Assembly: GCA_037355855.1 (NCBI GenBank) | Contig: CM074764.1 | Location: 1,488,001-1,552,000, forward strand | Reading direction: 5' to 3' | Length of the DNA: 64,000 nucleotides | Source of the DNA: Pseudo-nitzschia pungens | Lineage: Eukaryota; Bacillariophyta; Bacillariophyceae; Bacillariales; Bacillariaceae | Shown here: positions 6,905 to 63,512 of the stretch, piece after piece | Numbering within the stretch: the stretch's first letter is position 1 | How the letters are laid out: each line of letters starts with the position of its first letter | Notes under the pieces: model-generated | Told to the model about the DNA's origin: nothing | The model's database searches: none | What the model saw: only the letters and a program-made list of their open reading frames with translations | Program-made: the position numbers and the translations under genes

Positions 6905-8002
6905 GTACGCTCACACGATCGTATCTTGTCGGCTTGGTATGAGTCCGGTATAACGATGAGCAGGAAGAAAGTGTTTCCTCTGCTCCATCGAACCGCGGTG
7001 TTTTCTTCCACGAAACCAGGGAACTGAAGCCTATCAGGTGTTCATGCAGTTGTCCATTTACCAACTGAACGTGGGTTGGTGGACAGAGGGAGACAGTTGT
7101 TGTCGGGATTGTTCGATTTTTTAGCCTACCACACAAACGTCATAGAACACTAATCCATAATATTAAAAGAACGAACAAACTGCTCTGAAACTTTTATGTC
7201 AACGGAACGAAATATACGGAAATACGTGTGTTGTAATGTTACTAAGCATTAGTTTGTCTTCCGAATGAATAAAATTGTTTTGAGTTCCACTCCAGATAAT
7301 TACGAGAACGAGAAGGATACAGTAATCTTATCCAACCACAATTTCTTTAGAATCACAATTGGTATCATCGAATCTCATTGGACAACCGGAATCTTGACAA
7401 ACTACATGATTCTTGAAATCTAACGATAGGCCCTGACGTCTTGTCACGGTGAAGTAACTACGTACGTCACACGGAGTCGCGCCAAGCTTGAGAAGCCCAG
7501 AAGTGTAACACCTTATCCTCAAAATAATGAAATAATCTCACCGCACCGCACGTTGATGTTTTTTTCTCCGAAAACAACCGCAACAATTTGCAACTTCCAC
7601 CGTGACACACGGAGAGGTTGAGACATACCGCACGACCATTTCATCGTCTTTGCATTGTTCCATTACAATCAATAGTGGCATCTAAACAAAAAATAAAAAC
7701 CGTACAGGATTGGTTGTGATGTCAAAAAAATTACTGTATTTCGCAATGATAGATAGGCCTCGTCAGAGTGCGCAAGGCTCTTTCATCCATTTCCTTCCAT
7801 ACAAGCTCCAAATCCAATGCGAATTGCGTTGGCGGAGCAGCAGCAGCAGCAGGGGTAGTAGTGCGCAACTCGAGCGCACGCACGGTCACGCGGCGAGATC
7901 GCAAACGTCCCCAAAAAAAGCGCCTCAAAAATCCCGCGGCAAACGATTTCGTCTTCCCACGGGCGAGACGTTCCGCAATCGTTCGTTCGTTCGTTCGTTC
8001 GT
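6905..8002. other. Convergent intergenic region
   Basis: 3' spacer between aldolase (+) and enolase (-). It is AT-rich. A (CGTT)n microsatellite at about 7978-8002 abuts the enolase stop and probably lies in its 3' end. I see no gene. Confidence 0.5.
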
Positions 8003-49322: not shown

Positions 49323-50029
49323 TACTTTGTAACAACTTTTCTCTCGTGCATCCTCGTTTGAACATGTTCTGTAAATCAATTAGGGGAAAGGAGAAAATTT
49401 TTGTTGAATCTCAAAAACATGAAAAGAAAATTGGACACTTAACCATTGTTTTCTAACTTCTGCGGTTGTGTACGTGTAAGATTACCGTCACTTACTTGAC
49501 AATAACTTTACTAGTTTCAGACGTACGGGAATAGTAATGAGAGGTCAAAATTCTCGGATGATTTTAGTCCGACACATCATTCTTTTCGATCTTTCAATTG
49601 CCTTTTGGCGTGTGCTGTGCACGATCTTTGCGAGTTTGACACGCACCAATACAAGATGTTCGAATTTCTGATTGGTTGAAAGTCGCGGGCACACTATCCA
49701 TAAATACTATAAATACAGATGGGATATGCTCACTAAGCGCAATGGATGGACGAAATGTGATACGACAACTTTTGATGCAGGTTCACCGTTCACAGAGAAA
49801 TCTGAAGTAAGTTACGGTAAACCTTACGATACTACGAACTACATACTGTATTTTGGAAATCTATCTTTCGAAGTCAGTCCCATAGAAGAGCAGACGCAAC
49901 GATTATCCACGAGCCTCCACTGGTGACTTTCTCGAATTCTTGCTTCGCAATCGTCATACCAATACAACTATCAGCAATCTTCACTCCAAAACCGAATCCA
50001 GTGTTATATCTGGTTTTTACTCTGTAACC
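49323..50029. other. Promoter/leader of phytotransferrin-like gene
   Basis: It contains TATA-like CTATAAATACAG at about 49708, some 320 bp before the ATG used. An open frame at 49672-49926 (+) falls in this likely leader and has no recognisable domain, so I do not call it a gene. No iron-response element could be named with confidence. Confidence 0.4.
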
Positions 50030-51975
50030 ATGACGGTTTTTGTTGCTTCGGTTGTTGCACTTCTTCTCCTTGTAACCCCGGCACGGTCATCGACCTTGCG
50101 ATCCACTCCCCAGGATGATCGGCGCCTTTCTTACGAGCTCATAGCAAACTATGAGCCCAGATCCTCGGTAACAGATATCGTGAGTTTGTTTTGTCGACTT
50201 GATTTTCATTCTTGTCACTTGATATATGCGGAAAAGATACTACCTCTTTCTTTCACGGCCTAACAAAATTTTGATGAACTGCTGTCTCATATCCAATGCG
50301 ATACAGAATGCTATCGACCTCGACCAAGCAGCCATGGAAGATCAGCTCGCAATCAGAAACATTGTAGCGTGGAAGAACGCTGAAGAAATTTACAAGAATG
50401 GTGGTCATTCAAAATCGGTCGCAATGATTACTCTGTCCACTCCCCTTGCTGGCGCCTTGAAGAAATTTACTCCCGTCACCGGCCAAAACTCTGGTGGCGC
50501 CACTGTGTATGGCCAAGTGTACGACGACTACGCGAATGGCGCAACCACTGTAGGGATACAATACACGGTGATTGATATCCAGGAGTCTTACGTGGAATGT
50601 CAGGTGGGTGGTCTTGTCAAACCAAACACCGTAGGGTGCTTCGCGGCCACTGGAACAATGACCATCGATGGGAAATCATACGATTACACGTACGATCCGA
50701 AGACAGCAAATGTAAACAAAATAACTCTACGAAAGTTCAGCACCGACGCCGAATCGAAGATGTACCGGTGTGATGACTGCCCGTATGCCACGTACCAGAA
50801 ATTCAGAGATTACTATGGATGGTTTGATTATGCCGATAGGTGGATCATGGCTGCGTTTGATGGTGTAGACACTGAATTGGCCAGAGGAAATGGTAAGTGG
50901 AACGGCTGGGCTTGTCTAGTTTGATCGTGCGCGATGACAGACATTCTCTTATGGCTCGTCTCGACTTTTCTTTCTAGCAAACTTTGCTGCTTACGGTTGG
51001 ATAGGAAGAGACGAAGCAATTAAAAAAGGAACAGCGTACATGAGTGTATGGATGTGGGTAATCAAGCTGATGGAAGACGCGCTTAGTAAGTGTGAAACTA
51101 TTAAGTGCGAAGAAAGCGGCTGCAACAGCGGCGCTTTGCGTAGCTGGGATTCAGCGGTTGCATCGTACACAGGCAGCTTAGAGGGAAGTAATGGATCGGG
51201 TTCTGGAAAGTTACTCTACGCACTCGCCGACAAGCGTTGCGAAAATTTCAGAACTTGTGGAGAACAAGCACAGAGTGCGGAGGGATCTTCTCATGTAAAT
51301 ATCAACATTATCCGCAATTTTGCTTATGGATCGAGATTGATTCAGGCTGGAATGTGCGCCGAAGCTAAACCGCACAAAGAACACATTGAAAAACTTATGA
51401 CTGTTCCCCTTATCCAGGGCACACTTCGGTACGCTTACATCACTAGCACTGATGAAAAGGCTGGTGACAAGGCGGAGCTGGAAGGAGCAACCTTTGCCGC
51501 TGCTGTCCTACCAATCGTCTATGCCTGTGACGAAGACGCAGCAAACACAATCTACAAAAATATGAAGACAGGCCAAGCCGGCTCTGCAAGTTTTCCGGAG
51601 GTCAAAGCCGCATTCGAATCAGTTTATAGCTGTATGGGTATTGATGGTCGTTCTGTAGGCGGTCTTTGGAATAAAGATACTGAAAGTTATTATTATGGTG
51701 CGAAGCCCGTTGGCACCTCACGGTCCAAGTCAAAGCTCCCTTTGATTATCGGGTGTCTTGCAGGCGGACTTGCACTTGGTGTCATTCTCTACGCTGCTGC
51801 GTCCAAGTTTGGTAATAGCGGTAAGGCGCTTGTGGGAGAAAAGGAAGATCCTTTGGGCTTATCTGAGGAGGATGATAACCAAGGAGGACGGGATCCAGAA
51901 ACTGTAACCGCTGGGAATGAGGAAGATCCTTTGCCTGCCACCAACAGTGAAATGGAGCCCGTTGAAATTAGTTAA
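50030..51975 (+). CDS. Phytotransferrin/FEA1-like iron-assimilation surface protein
   Basis: Three exons fit: 50030-50179, 50307-50892 and 50978-51975. GTGAGT and GTAAGT donors give 577 residues. A clear signal peptide (MTVFVASVVALLLLVTPARS) starts it. A single membrane helix near 499-520 (LIIGCLAGGLALGVILYAA) and a short acidic cytosolic tail end it, so it is a type I surface protein. The ectodomain has paired cysteines and an FEA1-like block: MTVPLIQGTLRYAYI, then FAAAVLPIVYACDEDAA and VKAAFESVYSCMGI. That pattern recalls the algal Fe-assimilation proteins, including diatom ISIP2A, which binds ferric iron with carbonate at the cell surface. Family placement rests on remembered motifs; iron binding is inferred. 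Confidence 0.68.
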
Positions 51976-53451: not shown

Positions 53452-56400
53452 CTAGAGGAAAAGGTCATCAAACGGGATCTGCGATTCGTCTTTCTTTGCA
53501 ACATTCCACCAGGTCAACAACTCTTTGGTTTTTTCTTCATCGAGAGTTCTAGCAATATCTCTGCATGCTCTTGGCATACCAGCACCGAACATCTGTTTCC
53601 AAAGTTGTTCTTCCCGCATATTAAACTCTTCACTACTCCTTACTTCCTCCGGCGGGTCACAGACATAAGAAATCAATTTCTCAGGAGAATTCAGAATCGG
53701 ATGACGCCGTCTAGCAGTTGACGGGACATTGTTGGCAAAGAGAGTTACAGCTGATTCAAAATCAAGCTCCCAAACGGGGACAATTTTTTCTCCTTTAATT
53801 TGACTACCTCCTACTGAAATTGTTTCAGAGATCAAAATGAATTTCAGTGTCTCGGTGGATTGAATTTTCAACAATTTGTCAATGACATGGTGGATGTTTT
53901 TCACATTGTTTTTCTTTCTCTCATCATTTTCATAGCTACAAATGTCAAGCACCAAAAGCAATGACTTGCTTTCGGCATTTTTCTCGATAGATTGTAGCAT
54001 TTTATGGGGCTCAGACCCTTCGGTAATATTTACATTGCTTTCATCCATCATAAGAGTTATGAAGGACAAAAGATTTTGGTAAAGGCTGCTCGTACTATCA
54101 ATTGATCCTTGTGAAGGGAACCAAAATAAGTAATCGAAAGGAAAGGATCTTGATCTTTGCAGTATATGATCACACACGGCAGATACTATGGCCGTCTTTC
54201 CCACACCAGGTTTTCCAAACAATCGAATGACATCAGTTGTACAAATATCATTAAGTATACTGTACTGTTGAACTTCACGGCCAACAATAAAGTCCTTGAG
54301 CTTCGGAAGTCCGATATCTGTTATCTTGTTTGAAGATTCGTCTATCACTGATAGTGTTTCTGAGGAAAAGAAAACAGGAACATCATGGTACGACGGATCA
54401 TCGGGTCTTTTGGGCAATAGCAAAAATTTACCTGCTTCGATTTCCGAGTTCATTACCAACGGAGAGTTTTGCACAGCCTGTTGCGCCATGTTAAATGCTT
54501 TCAGTAGACTATTCTGACAGGCTAGTGCACGGTAAAAATTTCGAGTAAATTCCCACGCTGCTGCATCTTGAAGGCGTTCATTGACCAGGCAACATACAGC
54601 GTGGGGAACGCCGGCATCCACAAAAGCTTCTCCCACCCACTCCGAGTGACACGCGGAGATGAACACAACGAGAAGCCCGCTGTCAACGGCGGACACCATT
54701 CTTTTTAAAACGTCTGCATTAACCATTTCGAGACCACCTCTGTCGTCTTCTAAAGCAATGTAACTCGGATGACAGTGACCACTGAAATGCATCACCTGGC
54801 TTATCCCCTGAGCCAGGAATGCATTGATTCTATCTAGCGACGCAGTTTCGAAAATGACATCGATGGTGCACCCAAGCGTTTCGGCATCTTTCAATGCTTC
54901 GCATAACATGCGGGACTCTTGATTGAAATCAACTCTAGGTAGTGGCTGAATGTTGTTATTTTTGTCCTTAAAAACAAGGGGGGCAGATTGAAAAACGAAA
55001 AGTCGATCATAGTTGTCTTGTGCATTACCGAGACGGTTCAGTTCATTCACGACATGATTCCAGTTTTGAGGACGATCCTTTGGATCCTTTTGCAGAAGAG
55101 AGTCGAGTAGCGCCACGGGCCACTTTGAGTCCACTTTCGACAACTTTTCATATTTCCAGTCATCATCCCAATCTCGTAATACAACCAGATCTTCATCATC
55201 CACATCCTCCTTCATGTCGACATTGAAAAGTTGTTTCCCAGTACATAGAAAGTACAGCAGTGCTCCAAAACACCACATATCATACTGAGGAGTTGCGATG
55301 ACGTCTCCGGGTTTACTTTGTATCTGTTTTATATACGACGGTCTCGAACAGAGTCTGACAAGACGCTTTACCACATCAGTATCATTTCTGGAACTTGCAG
55401 CAGCAATCTTCACCATGATGGAATCCACACTCTCCTCTGTTGAGGCAAGTGAATGGTTGTCATCGTTTGAGCGTTCAAACGCTACTACGGCAGCTTGCTC
55501 CGGAGGTAAATAACCAGAGCTTGTTCGTTTTTTCCCTACCGTCTCTCGCCCGATCATGGAACTATTGTCCATGTCGATTGCCGCGAATCCTACGAGACCA
55601 ACACCTCTCGCGACAAAGTTCCTTGCCTTGACATCCCCGTGACAAACACCACAGGTTTCGTTCAGAAATTTTAGGCAGAGAGCGATTTCCTTCGCTATAG
55701 AAGTAACTACCAAAAGATCCTTACCGGCAATATTTTGATGTGATATGAAATCGTGCAGGTCATATCCGGCTCCACAATCCATAACAATGACGTATTTCAG
55801 ATCAGATCCCTTGAGTCGTATATTGGGGTACGGAACAAGTTCTGCCGCTAGATTTACTTTTGTGCATTCGAACTCATCAATAGCCATACTCGAAAAACTC
55901 GCTTTTATTGGTACTATGTATTTCGAATCCAACCTGCTCCGTTTTTCGACCTCGCGTCGCTGATACACTTCGTTGCAAAACATTTCTCGCGTCGTCATAA
56001 ATTTGAGCGCGACGGGATGCTCCACTATTCGCCCATCATTTTCTTTGATCGTTTCTGTTCCAAAGACGACAACGCACGATTCCGAAACGTGTTTGTTTCG
56101 TTTCTCGAGACGATACCTACGCAAAAACCTGCCTGCGGTGTCCAAGATTGTTCAAACAAATGAAACGACGAGAATTGTTTGAGTATCTGTTGCAAAAGTG
56201 GGGTGAGGACATCAATGGAACCGAAAGACGAATGAATCACAACGCACCGTATCCTTGACCCCAACGCTTCAAGGCCGGTGAGCTGTTTGAGAGCTTGGCT
56301 CTATCCGCAATTCTCGTTCGGACACTGTCCGAAACTCTTGCACGCGAAACAAACTCGAGAATGACATCGCCGTCTTCGTTGGCGATCGAAAACTCCTGAT

Positions 56401-57511
56401 GGTCTAGGTTCAATTTGTTTTTCTGTTCCACAATTATTTGCAGGAGCGCACTGGCAGCGTCTGTCGTGTCAAAGTCGGCAACAATATCCAGCAAACACCA
56501 ATTCGAAAGCACCCTGCTGTTGAGATCGAGCAGGAGTTTTCTATTGTTTGTAGTCCCCGTTGGTGTTTGTTGCTGTTGCTGTGATTTTTTCAGCAGGACT
56601 TTGTTCTCGTCAAAGAGGGAGAAAAAGGCCCAGAGCGACACCGGGTTTTCGAGACTGAAGAGCGTCTGCAGGGCGCGTCCATCTCTGGCCGTTTCGAGAA
56701 GCAATTTGAGCCGCAGGATAGTTTCGCGTCGCAAGAGATCGTCGATGCTCTTGGCCGACGCACATTCCCCCACCAAGATACTGACCGGGCTTCCGGTCGA
56801 CGGGCCGATGATTTCCGACGCTGGAGGAGACGCTCGATACATTTTCTCCAGAGTCGTGGTGACGGCCCGCGACACCTCTCCCTCGGATCCCTGTCCGGGC
56901 TGATCGATGTCGAGATAAATCTTGGCCTTCAGCGACGGAATGAAGGTGCTGCAAAATATGTTCAGGGGCAGATTTCCGGATCCATCCTTTTGGTGAACAA
57001 CCTCGGGAAAGGAATCGAGGAGGAAATCTAGATTGCTCAGTACCGAAAGAATGTCGGCCATGGGACTCTTGCCGCGTACGCCGGCTTCAATAAGGCTGCT
57101 CGTGGGCACGATGACCTGCTGCAGGGCCGGGAGCATACCGGTGTGAAAGGGCGTGTTTCCGGATGCGTCGAAGGACTTTATTGCATCCGGGTAGGCCTCG
57201 ACCAATATCATAACGGTTGTAGTCGGGGCGCCGATCATCATTGCCGTATGCAGCGGTAGCATATTGTTGTTTTCTGGGTCCCTGGTTTTCGCGAGTTCTG
57301 GGTACATGTCCAGCAACTCAAAGACGGCCTCGAAGTCCAGAAGAAGTTGGTGAAGTTGGTGGAGCTGTTGTCGTCGTTGATGTTGTTGAGTGAGATCTGT
57401 CGTAGCAGCTACCGCAGCTTTAGCCAAGGCCAACTTTGACGGTGCCGATTTACGGGAGGACGCCGGCAATTTTTGGTCCCCCCAAGAGTTATTAGTGTTA
57501 TACGACGTCAT
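53452..57511 (-). CDS. Ankyrin-kinase-CHAT-STAND NTPase multidomain protein
   Basis: Two exons, 57511-56248 and 56132-53452, join in frame (phase 1) across a 115-bp GTGCGT..CAG intron to give 1314 residues. Residues about 50-180 hold diatom-style ankyrin repeats (LPLHTAMMIGAP, AYPDAIKSFDASGNTPFH). Residues about 425-795 are a kinase: VALK Lys465, HGDVKARN with Asp588, DMD Asp608, PPE near 632, and an insert of about 55 residues after PPE. Residues about 800-980 form a CHAT protease-like fold with His874 in HFSGHCH and Cys916 in ISACHS. Residues about 1030-1310 have P-loop GKPGVGKT (1061-1068) and Walker B LLLVLD (Asp1151), as in STAND/NB-ARC switches. No C-terminal sensor repeats follow. An immune or cell-death role is inferred from architecture. 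Confidence 0.85.
56133..56247 (-). other. Predicted intron joining ankyrin and kinase frames
   Basis: Donor GGATACG/GTGCGTTG and acceptor CACCGCAG/GCAGG. The ankyrin frame otherwise stops at TGA (56237-56239). The kinase frame has no ATG before its Lys465 region and has an in-frame TGA upstream. Removing these 115 bases links them with one shared Gly codon, giving WGQGYGRFLRRYRLEK. Confidence 0.78.
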
Positions 57512-59300: not shown

Positions 59301-62300
59301 ATGCCACGACAGGCATCACCATCACCAGAGCGTCCGCCGGAACGTCCGCATGGGAACAACAATATTTCGATCAGAACCACGAATGATGCCGAGAATGGCA
59401 CCAGTAATGATATCTTCGACGAAGTCCTTGAGAGTGAAAAGAAGGACGATATTTATGAGCATTCGAACTACGTTTACATTCTCGATGCGGAACACAGCTG
59501 GATTCCGGCCAAGGTGAAGGAACGAAAACACAGCGGCAAAGACAGCAATGCATCTGTTCTGAGCCTTTCCGTTCCTCAATACAGGAACGAACAAGCCATT
59601 CGATGCGACGGCGGCAGAATGGCTACGCAAGGGTACAAAACGGAAACAATAGATTTCTCAAATCCGGAAAACCAGACCAGGTATCCGAATCAGCACCTGC
59701 CGCTACAGAACGTGAACAGCGAGGGTGAATTGCAGGTCGTCGAAGACATGGTCGACTTGCCGTTTTTGCACGAGGCCGCTATTTTGTACAACCTCAAGGC
59801 TCGCCACGTAGAATCCTTGCCGTACACACGCACGGGCGATATCATACTGGCATGCAATCCCTACAAATGGATTCATCGTTTGTATTCGGACGCGGAGAGA
59901 AGTCGATATTCCAATGCCCTGGTCTGGAATCGACAGGGAGCCACACCACCATCTCCCAGGGGCAAAACCCCGTCGTCGCCGTCACTCTCCCAACCGACAA
60001 CGGTCCCGGCCTCCGATTCGAATGTCTCGGAGTCGTCCCAACGACAGCCATCTGCTGGCACAGATCCTAGATCACTGCTCCCGCCCCATGTCTACGAAAC
60101 AAGTTGTTTGGCCTATACCGGACTCGTCCGAGACCGAGAAGACCAGTCGATTCTGGTGTCGGGAGAGTCCGGTGCGGGAAAAACAGAAACCGTCAAAATC
60201 CTCATGCACGATCTCGCTAGCATACAAGAAGAACGATTTGCCATCAAGTCGACGACAGCGACAGCGACAGCTACGGCAGCAAAATCACAAGACAACAACG
60301 AAATTGTTCAGCGTGTGGTGGATTCCAATCCCCTCTTGGAGGCCTTTGGAAATGCTACGACGCTGCGAAATGACAACTCTTCCCGCTTTGGTAAATATTT
60401 GCAGCTCCAATACGATATCTCGTCGTCATCGAAGGATTCCAGCGCAACCGCGGGAATCGGTTCTGGTATTTTGGCGGGGAGCAAATGCGAGGTGTATTTG
60501 CTAGAAAAGTCGCGTGTGACGCACCACCACGATTCCGAACGGACCTATCACATTTTTTATCAGCTTCTAGCGGCCCCGGAAGAACTGAAAATCGCCATCT
60601 GGGACGGCCTGGAAAACACGGACGCGGAATCCTTCTGTTACGTGGGTGAAACCGAAATCGATGTCATCGAGGGCAAGACAGACGCCGAGCGATTCCAGCT
60701 TACGCTGCAAGCTCTGGAATTGATTGGTGTCCGGGGAGAAATTCTGCAAATGCTGTTGCGAGCAATTTGTATCGTGCTGCAGCTTGGGAATATCGAATTT
60801 GCACCCGCCCAACCAGAATCTGCTACCGGCATGGCAGCGCTCGGTATTCATCACAAACCAGCTATGAATGGTGACGACGGCAATCACGACGCAAGCGACA
60901 TTTGTAGCATCGAGGAGCTGCAAGAGCTGAGTGACTTGATGGGGATGAACGACATCGATTCTGTCTCCAAGATTTCAGCAGCGCTGAAAAAATCGCTCAC
61001 GGTACGAAACGTTGAAGCCCGCGGGGAGATATTTGCCGTCCCTCTCACACCGGCGAAAGCCAAAGAATCGGCCGACGCCTTTGCCAAGGAGATTTACGCC
61101 AAAACCTTTCTCTGGTTGGTCCGAACCATCAACGATGCAACCTGTGCCGAAAAGAACTACCGGGTTGTATTGGATGCGACCAAATCCAAAGGATCTCCAA
61201 TTGCGCCAACGGAGTTTGGAATCATTGGACTCTTGGATATTTTTGGTTTTGAGACCTTTGAGGTCAATAGGTTTGAACAGCTCTGTATCAACTACTGCAA
61301 CGAAAAACTTCAACAGAAATTCACGCAGGACATTTTTCGCAGTGTGCAAGTCGAGTACGAACAGGAAGGCATCGAATTGGAAGAGATTACTTACGACGAT
61401 AACACGGACGTCCTAGATCTGGTCGAGGGAAGAATGGGTCTTCTCGCCTTCTTGAACGAAGAATGTGTCCGTCCCAAAGGATCCGACAAGACATTTGTGT
61501 ACAAGGCACAAGCCATGAACAAAGAAAACCGGTGTTTCTTTCGCGACAAACACGCCGCAGATACCGAATTTGGAATTCATCACTACGCCGGTAAGGTGGT
61601 GTACGACGCAACGAATTTTGTCAAGAAAAATACCGACACTTTGCCAAGTGATTTATTGAACTGCGCAAAGCTGTCCAGCAATGCAATCATTGCAAATGAA
61701 TTGAACAATGACGAAATGATGAATCCGTTGCAAAAGGGAACCGCGTCGACCACTGGTACCAAGAAGAAAAAACGCCCGAAAGCAGCGCAGGCTGCGAACA
61801 ACAAACAGTTGAAGAGGCGAACTTCGAACATTGTCGCGGAGACGGTCTGGACGAAATTCAAGACACAACTATCGAGATTGATGAATACACTAAGCGATAC
61901 AAAGACCAGATATATTCGTTGCATCAAACCCAACACTCAGAAAGCACCCCTCATCATGGAACACGTCAGTACAGTGGAGCAATTGCGGTGTGCTGGTGTG
62001 GTTGCAGCTGTGACGATTTCGCGCTCGGCTTTCCCAAATCGATTGGAGCATATTTCGATTTTGGATCGATTCAAGTCTCTGTGGCCCAAGGGTGATCACA
62101 TTGCCGTCTTGCAGAACGAGCATCTAGATGTCGATGAGAGGTGCAAGAAAGCAACCGATATCCTTCTGACTCTTGCATTGAGAGAAATGGAATTCGAGAA
62201 GAATGGATCCAGATTCCGAGCTTTTGTTATGGGCAAGACCCGAGCATACTTTCGAGCTGGAGCGCTTGAGTTCTTGGAAGCGGAGCGCATGAAACATTTG

Positions 62301-63512
62301 GGAACATATGCTCTCACAATACAGACAGCAGTTCGTTGTTTCACTCGGAAATCCATGTACAGAAGATACCGACGAGCTCTGGTTACGTTGCAAGCAAATT
62401 ATCGTCGAATCCGTCAAAGAAGAGTCTATTTGGAAGTGCGTCAATCAGCGATTCGGATTGAATGCTGGTATCGAGTCGTATTTGCTAGTCGCAGAGTGTA
62501 CCATCTCAGGCGTTCAATGAAGGCTATCATGATTCAGACACAGTGGAGAGTGCGACGTGACAAGAGGCGGCTTCGCACAGCGGTAGACGCCTCTGTTGTT
62601 ATTCAATCCATGGTTCGAGGATGTCTACAGCGTCCAAAGTATCGGCAAGCGCTGTTCGAGAAGAAAGAAGAAGCCAAGCTTGAAAACCAGCTGCAAGCAT
62701 TACAACGAAAATTGGAAGAGGCTGAAGCCAAAAGACTTGAGGCGGAAAAGGAAGCAGAAGGGAGGGTGGCAGCCGCCATGGAGGAGTTCAAAGAACGAGA
62801 GGCGCAAAAAGCCAAACTCGAAGAAGAGACGATGTCGATAGCAGCAGCAACTGAATTGAACCAACCAAACGCAACGGAAGTGAATGAACCTGCTGCCGCG
62901 AGAGGAACGGAAACTCAAACCCTGGATGAAAAGAATGTCCAGGACTTGACAGCTGAACAACAGCAACTGATGGACGAGAGTGGGAAAATGCTCGAACATT
63001 TGCGCAAAGAAGTCTTTAGACTGCGTGGCCAGAATCAACAGCTTAAAAAGGATTTTGACCTTCTGAAAGATAATAACCAACGTCTCATGGATGCAAACGC
63101 GTCTGCGGGGGTTTCGTTTGCGTCACTGAATCAGCACGCAAAGCAACTGAGCAAGCAGAACACGAAGTTGGTAAAAGATGTGCAAAATTTCAAAGGTCAG
63201 GTTCACAAGCTCAATATATTACAAGTAGAAGCAAGGGAAGAGTTGAGACTCAAGTCAGCAACATATGTGGCAGAGGTTCAATCCAGGCTTCAGTATCAAA
63301 AAGCACTTCAGAGAATCACAGATATTATTCAAGAGAAATGTAGAGATCACAGATTGGTCGAGCAAATCTTAACAATCGCAGATGAACTGGATATGGATTT
63401 CATTCCAGGCTCCCACGAACTTCCTTTCGATCCAACGGAGACTGATTCTGAGGGTTTGGAAGAAACTGGAAGCGATTCACGACGTGGTCTTTTGAGTTAC
63501 TTCTTTTCCTAG
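59301..63512 (+). CDS. Myosin heavy chain
   Basis: One uninterrupted exon of 1403 residues. The N-terminus is a Pro/Ser-rich extension, then an SH3-like segment (WIPAKVKERKHSGKD). The motor follows: P-loop GESGAGKTE (288-296), switch I NDNSSRFGK (357-365), switch II LLDIFGFE (644-651) and the actin-site/converter region (RYIRCIKPN). Loops in the motor carry extra Ser/Thr-rich and Lys-rich inserts. About five IQ-like light-chain motifs span residues 1003-1112. A coiled coil follows from about 1115, and a further helical segment (LRKEVFRLRGQNQQLKKDF) lies near 1235. No PH, FERM, WW or ankyrin tail domain is seen. It is an ATP-driven actin motor; its class needs a motor phylogeny, but it looks like a stramenopile-specific type. 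Confidence 0.94.
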   Translation: MPRQASPSPERPPERPHGNNNISIRTTNDAENGTSNDIFDEVLESEKKDDIYEHSNYVYILDAEHSWIPAKVKERKHSGKDSNASVLSLSVPQYRNEQAIRCDGGRMATQGYKTETIDFSNPENQTRYPNQHLPLQNVNSEGELQVVEDMVDLPFLHEAAILYNLKARHVESLPYTRTGDIILACNPYKWIHRLYSDAERSRYSNALVWNRQGATPPSPRGKTPSSPSLSQPTTVPASDSNVSESSQRQPSAGTDPRSLLPPHVYETSCLAYTGLVRDREDQSILVSGESGAGKTETVKILMHDLASIQEERFAIKSTTATATATAAKSQDNNEIVQRVVDSNPLLEAFGNATTLRNDNSSRFGKYLQLQYDISSSSKDSSATAGIGSGILAGSKCEVYLLEKSRVTHHHDSERTYHIFYQLLAAPEELKIAIWDGLENTDAESFCYVGETEIDVIEGKTDAERFQLTLQALELIGVRGEILQMLLRAICIVLQLGNIEFAPAQPESATGMAALGIHHKPAMNGDDGNHDASDICSIEELQELSDLMGMNDIDSVSKISAALKKSLTVRNVEARGEIFAVPLTPAKAKESADAFAKEIYAKTFLWLVRTINDATCAEKNYRVVLDATKSKGSPIAPTEFGIIGLLDIFGFETFEVNRFEQLCINYCNEKLQQKFTQDIFRSVQVEYEQEGIELEEITYDDNTDVLDLVEGRMGLLAFLNEECVRPKGSDKTFVYKAQAMNKENRCFFRDKHAADTEFGIHHYAGKVVYDATNFVKKNTDTLPSDLLNCAKLSSNAIIANELNNDEMMNPLQKGTASTTGTKKKKRPKAAQAANNKQLKRRTSNIVAETVWTKFKTQLSRLMNTLSDTKTRYIRCIKPNTQKAPLIMEHVSTVEQLRCAGVVAAVTISRSAFPNRLEHISILDRFKSLWPKGDHIAVLQNEHLDVDERCKKATDILLTLALREMEFEKNGSRFRAFVMGKTRAYFRAGALEFLEAERMKHLGTYALTIQTAVRCFTRKSMYRRYRRALVTLQANYRRIRQRRVYLEVRQSAIRIECWYRVVFASRRVYHLRRSMKAIMIQTQWRVRRDKRRLRTAVDASVVIQSMVRGCLQRPKYRQALFEKKEEAKLENQLQALQRKLEEAEAKRLEAEKEAEGRVAAAMEEFKEREAQKAKLEEETMSIAAATELNQPNATEVNEPAAARGTETQTLDEKNVQDLTAEQQQLMDESGKMLEHLRKEVFRLRGQNQQLKKDFDLLKDNNQRLMDANASAGVSFASLNQHAKQLSKQNTKLVKDVQNFKGQVHKLNILQVEAREELRLKSATYVAEVQSRLQYQKALQRITDIIQEKCRDHRLVEQILTIADELDMDFIPGSHELPFDPTETDSEGLEETGSDSRRGLLSYFFS

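Follow-up and report, generated by a model that had tools for sequence, protein, structure and literature searches.

A diatom gene joining ankyrin repeats, a protein kinase, a predicted CHAT protease and a STAND-type NTPase may encode a modular receptor acting in cell death or immunity

In the Apaf-1 and CED-4 systems a caspase-like protease is switched on through the clustering of a nucleoside triphosphatase (NTPase), and SAVED-CHAT (PDB 8tl0), which we take to be a bacterial protease, is deposited under a title that mentions an activated filament. Fungal NOD-like receptors (NLRs) with a CHAT domain and a link to gasdermin are described in PMC9815663 and PMC12881547. For algae, two further articles report that the executor genes of diatom cell death are unknown, caspases being absent and metacaspases having been put forward for this role (PMC8455989), and that brown algae have NB-ARC-TPR candidate immune receptors (PMC11378527). 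Here we describe a gene of the diatom Pseudo-nitzschia pungens, located in a stretch of 64,000 nucleotides (contig CM074764.1, positions 1,488,001 to 1,552,000; the window), whose predicted product is a new arrangement of known conflict modules and may be a modular receptor acting in cell death or immunity. Its relatives (P0001 and onward) were collected in three protein searches, each scoring only the 7999-8000 candidates that shared most words, so that all counts of relatives are lower bounds. The features of the gene, in window positions, are as follows.

53452..57511, minus strand: whole gene, two exons and one intron, 1314 residues
56248..57511, minus strand: exon 1, start codon at 57511; low-complexity N-terminus, ankyrin-like repeats and conserved linker; residues 1-422
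56687..57403, minus strand: ankyrin-repeat fold by structure prediction; residues 37-275
56133..56247, minus strand: intron of 115 bases, GTGCGT...CGCAG, phase 1; junction reproduced by P0001 and P0004
53452..56132, minus strand: exon 2, including the stop codon; residues 422-1314
55042..56121, minus strand: protein kinase domain, Pkinase 3.5e-14; residues about 426-785
56002..56004, minus strand: kinase Lys465 (VALK), from alignment with relatives
55618..55641, minus strand: catalytic loop HGDVKARN, a motif common to relatives; residues 586-593
55567..55575, minus strand: DMD replacing DFG, at the same place in relatives; residues 608-610
54343..55011, minus strand: predicted CHAT caspase-like protease domain; residues about 796-1018
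54775..54777, minus strand: CHAT His874 (HFSGHC), from alignment
54649..54651, minus strand: CHAT Cys916 (ISACHS), from alignment
53503..54327, minus strand: predicted STAND-type NTPase, nucleotide-binding and first helical domain; residues about 1024-1298
54193..54216, minus strand: Walker A GKPGVGKT with Lys1067; residues 1061-1068

The diatom protein shares with SAVED-CHAT the CHAT fold with aligned His and Cys, but it has no SAVED sensor, and its CHAT domain is preceded by ankyrin and kinase parts and followed by an NTPase. Likewise, it combines CHAT and an NLR-type NTPase in one protein as the fungal CHAT-NLRs do; however, the fungal CHAT is N-terminal, whereas the diatom order is repeats, kinase, CHAT and C-terminal NTPase. 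The full NLR order of effector, NTPase and C-terminal repeats is therefore not found, since the repeats stand at the N-terminus and the NTPase at the C-terminus. In contrast to the NB-ARC proteins Apaf-1, CED-4 and plant NLRs, the caspase-like protease sits in the same chain as the NTPase, and no winged helix/MHD or C-terminal sensor was seen in that chain. A cyclase-CHAT-NB-ARC-TPR protein (P0093) and a CHAT-AAA-cyclase protein from Microcoleus (P0042) also carry CHAT with a STAND-like NTPase, but both are without kinase and ankyrin, and P0093 has a C-terminal TPR.

The gene model joins two open reading frames (57547-56237 and 56151-53452, minus strand) through a phase-1 GT-AG intron into 1314 residues with no internal stop. 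The 1303-residue protein P0001, identical to the gene product at 1263 of 1303 positions, crosses the junction GYG/RFLRR without a break, and this unbroken frame suggests that it was derived from complementary DNA. The N-terminal part through the C-terminal end also forms one unbroken chain in P0004 and P0016, and the possibility of two unrelated neighbouring genes was rejected, as P0001, P0004 and P0016 span all parts. P0002 spans them as well, but is itself a gene model; it is the closest named match in the protein search, a jgi/Psemu1 protein, presumably from Pseudo-nitzschia multiseries, with 91% identity across exon 2. In P0056 the N-terminal part is followed, at this same position, by what looks like intron sequence and then by the kinase, and the predicted proteins P0003, P0005 and P0006 begin or end at or near the splice point (56247/56133), as is expected if intron-bearing DNA was translated unspliced. 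Four predicted proteins (P0010, P0026, P0053 and P0056) begin or end at a second break point, located in the kinase just ahead of DLHDF, to which the same explanation applies. An earlier sequence-only reading of the window had proposed a single predicted protein with all four modules and an intron at 56133-56247, and both proposals are borne out by the joined frames and by these chains; in the protein chains and predicted folds covered, neither evidence for two independent genes nor folds at odds with CHAT or NB-ARC turned up. From its frame and its relatives, we judge the gene to be real, intact and conserved.

The CHAT domain is the slowest-changing part of the protein, with 84-97% identity to six chosen relatives (P0002, P0004, P0005, P0006, P0007 and P0009). 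It matches the Pfam CHAT profile at 2.7e-7 (30.7 bits, cut-off 24) and its predicted structure is a caspase-like fold with a His/Cys pair, so that it is classed as a CHAT peptidase and predicted protease; a chance match was rejected on profile, fold and conservation. The pair named in the sequence-only reading was recovered, with Cys916 exactly as given and His at 874. Both residues are kept in all 17 kinase-linked relatives (P0001-P0016 and P0070, the latter with a kinase tail only), while among 48 CHAT proteins in which no kinase was detected, four of them from the same genome as the gene and some of the others fragments, both are kept in 39, eight lack one or both (L006, L007, L008, P0023, P0025, P0027, P0030 and P0032) and one (P0041) is not covered.

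The C-terminal NTPase is the fastest-changing part (56-81% identity to the same six relatives). It exceeds the Pfam cut-offs for NB-ARC (3.3e-5; 23.7 versus 23.5 bits) and NPHP3_N (25.5 versus 24.8 bits), and falls slightly below that for NACHT (25.5 versus 26.7 bits). NCBIfam matches all stayed under the cut-off. Walker A (GKPGVGKT), Walker B (LLLVLDI) and a GxP-type motif (FGAGMPR) are present, and the predicted fold aligns with Apaf-1 up to Apaf-1 residue 347, which by the domain borders we assume for Apaf-1 covers the nucleotide-binding and first helical domains; beyond this point about 16 residues of the chain are left. Profile, predicted fold and motifs thus agree with the proposed P-loop STAND-type NTPase, in which Lys1067 lies exactly where it had been placed. 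The Walker A Lys is present in all 16 relatives that have this part, P0013 being without it.

The kinase scores 53.3 bits against a Pfam cut-off of 31.7, and Lys465, Asp588, Asn593 and Asp608 are all present. The earlier claim that catalytic motifs are retained therefore stands for these residues, but not for the glycine loop, in which GxGxxG is gone, nor for HRD and DFG, which read HGD and DMD; on profile and catalytic residues the domain is nonetheless assigned to the protein kinase superfamily. Of 40 relatives with full coverage, 36 have all six key positions (K-H-D-N-D-D), the exceptions being P0003, P0061, P0062 and P0064; ten more, partly covered rows are outside the 40. PADLOC matches to mad6, PD-T4-6 and MkoA are confined to the kinase and are taken as general kinase similarity. 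A distant relative of this kinase lies in a 1786-residue ankyrin-kinase open frame (L023:407-5764) with a degenerate catalytic loop, HRNLSLRS. In front of the kinase, exon 1 matched no Pfam family at E up to 1, the ankyrin profile included, but its predicted structure, from a model that ends in two intron-derived residues, shows ankyrin repeats at residues 37-275, and the exon 1 part is 33-38% identical to P0016, P0019 and P0035, in all of which Pfam detects ankyrin; the assignment is thus one of predicted fold.

The relatives show the CHAT cassette replaced by TIR, or the kinase replaced by LRR (leucine-rich repeat) or PDZ. The search with the kinase part returned at least 49 proteins, with Pfam matches, some overlapping, to CHAT (16), TIR (6), ankyrin (12), LRR (3) and FYVE (1). 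In all six kinase-TIR proteins (P0017, P0037, P0064, P0066, P0068 and P0069), with or without ankyrin or LRR, the kinase is N-terminal to TIR and 28-52% identical to that of the gene; like the gene they have a kinase of this family, accompanied in P0064 by ankyrin, but TIR stands in place of CHAT-NTPase. A tree built from 44 kinase domains gathers the 14 CHAT-bearing rows into a single group (98/83; 98% of bootstraps), which the TIR protein P0017 adjoins (99/95; midpoint root only), and at least three changes of TIR label are forced by the starred branches. Since TIR_2 had no match in the gene's own genome, with matches in 4 of 14 controls, the kinase-TIR forms come from other sources. The search with the CHAT-NTPase part returned at least 41 proteins, 16 of which (P0073-P0088; 1437-1540 residues) carry CHAT, with LRR and NACHT each detected by Pfam in 13 of the 16. 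These resemble a locus of the gene's own genome (L009), and share with the gene the CHAT-NTPase cassette and the His/Cys pair, the NTPase being C-terminal in L009, but have LRR in place of ankyrin-kinase.

Among the matches listed, Psemu1 (P0002) is the only named relative with kinase and CHAT. Named ankyrin-kinase relatives are from Seminavis robusta (P0019, P0035) and Amphora coffeaeformis (P0052), and CHAT without a detected kinase was found in Nitzschia inconspicua (P0029, and P0027, in which the His/Cys pair is missing), a record with taxid 33640, Asterionellopsis glacialis (P0036) and the ochrophyte Phaeothamnion confervicola (P0039). The named prokaryotic proteins with CHAT and NTPase, among the matches listed, are P0042-P0044 from Microcoleus.

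We propose that the product may act as a receptor in intracellular signalling whose layout resembles an inverted NLR, with the repeats coming first, the effector in the middle and the NTPase last, a model that we regard as evenly balanced between right and wrong. The ankyrin-kinase half would be the input, docking a partner and setting the state of the protein by phosphorylation. The CHAT-NTPase half would be the effector cassette, in which nucleotide-dependent self-association of the NTPase gathers CHAT domains and turns on cleavage at His874/Cys916, and cleavage of some target would lead to a stress, defence or cell-death response. The C-terminal half is read as the output because the shared kinase precedes either CHAT-NTPase or TIR, and the Apaf-1/CED-4 systems together with the filament title of SAVED-CHAT make NTPase clustering a natural on-switch for a caspase-like protease. 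Cell location, direction of signalling, oligomerisation, enzyme activity and an immune or death outcome are presumed in this proposal. A broader and more tentative idea, which we lean against, is that diatoms and related algae may have a class of modular immune or death receptors with an ankyrin-kinase chassis and an interchangeable effector slot (CHAT-NTPase or TIR), beside LRR-CHAT-NTPase receptors.

Several observations weigh against the proposed receptor model. Past the Apaf-1-aligned region neither a winged-helix/MHD part nor a C-terminal sensor was seen, the Walker A Ser/Thr is replaced by Glu or Lys in 4 of 16 relatives (P0004, P0010, P0011 and P0012) and the Walker B Asp by Glu or Asn in 3 of 16 (P0015, P0016 and P0070), while the kinase glycine loop reads RYRLEKRNKHVSESCVVVFG. 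The idea of a nucleotide switch gating the protease or the kinase, raised in the sequence-only reading, is therefore plausible, but weakened by the early chain end and the Walker A losses. The Walker replacements and the altered glycine loop, with the HGD and DMD variants and the loss of the His/Cys pair in 8 of 48 related CHAT proteins, would suit a scaffold with weak or no enzyme activity, whose divergent kinase and degenerating NTPase only bind ligands or partners; however, His874/Cys916 in 17 of 17 kinase-linked relatives, and Lys465, Asp588 and Asp608 in every fully covered kinase-CHAT relative, make this improbable. As to the exchange of modules, CHAT occurs in none of the six TIR fusions and Pfam ankyrin in one (P0064), and a CHAT/TIR exchange within diatoms is conjectural, as is an immune or cell-death role. 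The best CHAT tree does not unite kinase-linked CHAT in a single clade (two changes; one clade in 16% of bootstraps), so that one kinase-CHAT fusion and two fit alike.

Moreover, only one kinase-CHAT gene was found in the genome (66.9 Mb and 28 contigs scanned; locus counts are lower bounds), unlike large, expanding receptor families. A single gene would be in line with the kinase being the output and CHAT-NTPase its regulator, in which NTPase clustering lets CHAT clip the chain and free or destroy the kinase in ordinary stress signalling with no role in death; the six kinase positions complete in 36 of 40 relatives and the 81-95% identity of the kinase to the six chosen relatives also point this way. 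Yet the occurrence of TIR in the place of CHAT, downstream of this kinase family, is easier to reconcile with an effector slot, and in many CHAT-NTPase relatives no kinase was detected that could be regulated, so we consider it unlikely. The one intact gene, with orthologues conserved in other sources, could also suggest house-keeping perception of redox, aldehyde, iron or light stress and not defence against parasites; but conflict systems are where most known partners of the TIR and CHAT-NTPase kind occur, which leaves it, in our view, rather improbable. Pfam Gasdermin gave no match in the genome, but its controls were silent too, and this result is uninformative.

If the modular receptor class were real, some of the caspase-like activity that has been reported when diatoms die would come from CHAT, and not from metacaspase alone. 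A CHAT protease tied to an NLR-type NTPase, with its active-site pair conserved, would offer a direct and testable alternative to metacaspase for diatom death, and a single kinase family followed by either TIR or CHAT would point to an ocean-algal receptor toolkit comparable to plant, animal and fungal NLRs, yet arranged differently. Among the matches listed from the open-licence PMC, none dealt with diatom proteins carrying CHAT or CHAT-NTPase, or with four-part orthologues. The earlier statement that no protein with the four modules in this order was known to have been described thus holds among those matches, but the four-part protein is not unique, as judged by the orthologues already in sequence databases. 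The novelty of the combination is further lowered by PMC12881547, which states that fusions of protease domains with ankyrin repeats or with kinase-like domains may occur, although the text covered of that article does not describe a four-part protein.

In the genome as a whole, at least five CHAT loci exceed the cut-off, and only that of the window has matches over the kinase part too. Scans for a close viral source (viral_contigs, 27 pattern stretches) and a close bacterial source (genome_contigs, six stretches), which reach only sequences holding two short peptide patterns, confirmed none. L009 (contig C4, about 0.14 Mb) is a 1503-residue open frame of the LRR-CHAT-NACHT type with His/Cys intact, and L006, L007 and L008 (contig C5, about 3.245-3.271 Mb) are neighbouring LRR-CHAT genes in which the active-site His is lost in 3 of 3; a Macro match is over the cut-off in L008 and under it in L006. 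The part of the CHAT family profile that follows the NTPase has a weak match to the coiled part of ClpC. Three other NB-ARC loci (L016-L018; contigs C10 and C5) are stronger than that of the window, and at the place of L018 (in L022) the open frame shows, by eye, repeat-like helical sequence after NB-ARC. Within the window, open frames at 49886-51975 (plus strand) resemble a signal peptide and membrane-anchored protein, with a weak match, below the cut-off, to Fea1, a low-iron-inducible periplasmic protein (E 0.009), and the adjoining gene at 59301-63512 (plus strand) encodes a myosin motor (Myosin_head 6.2e-166).
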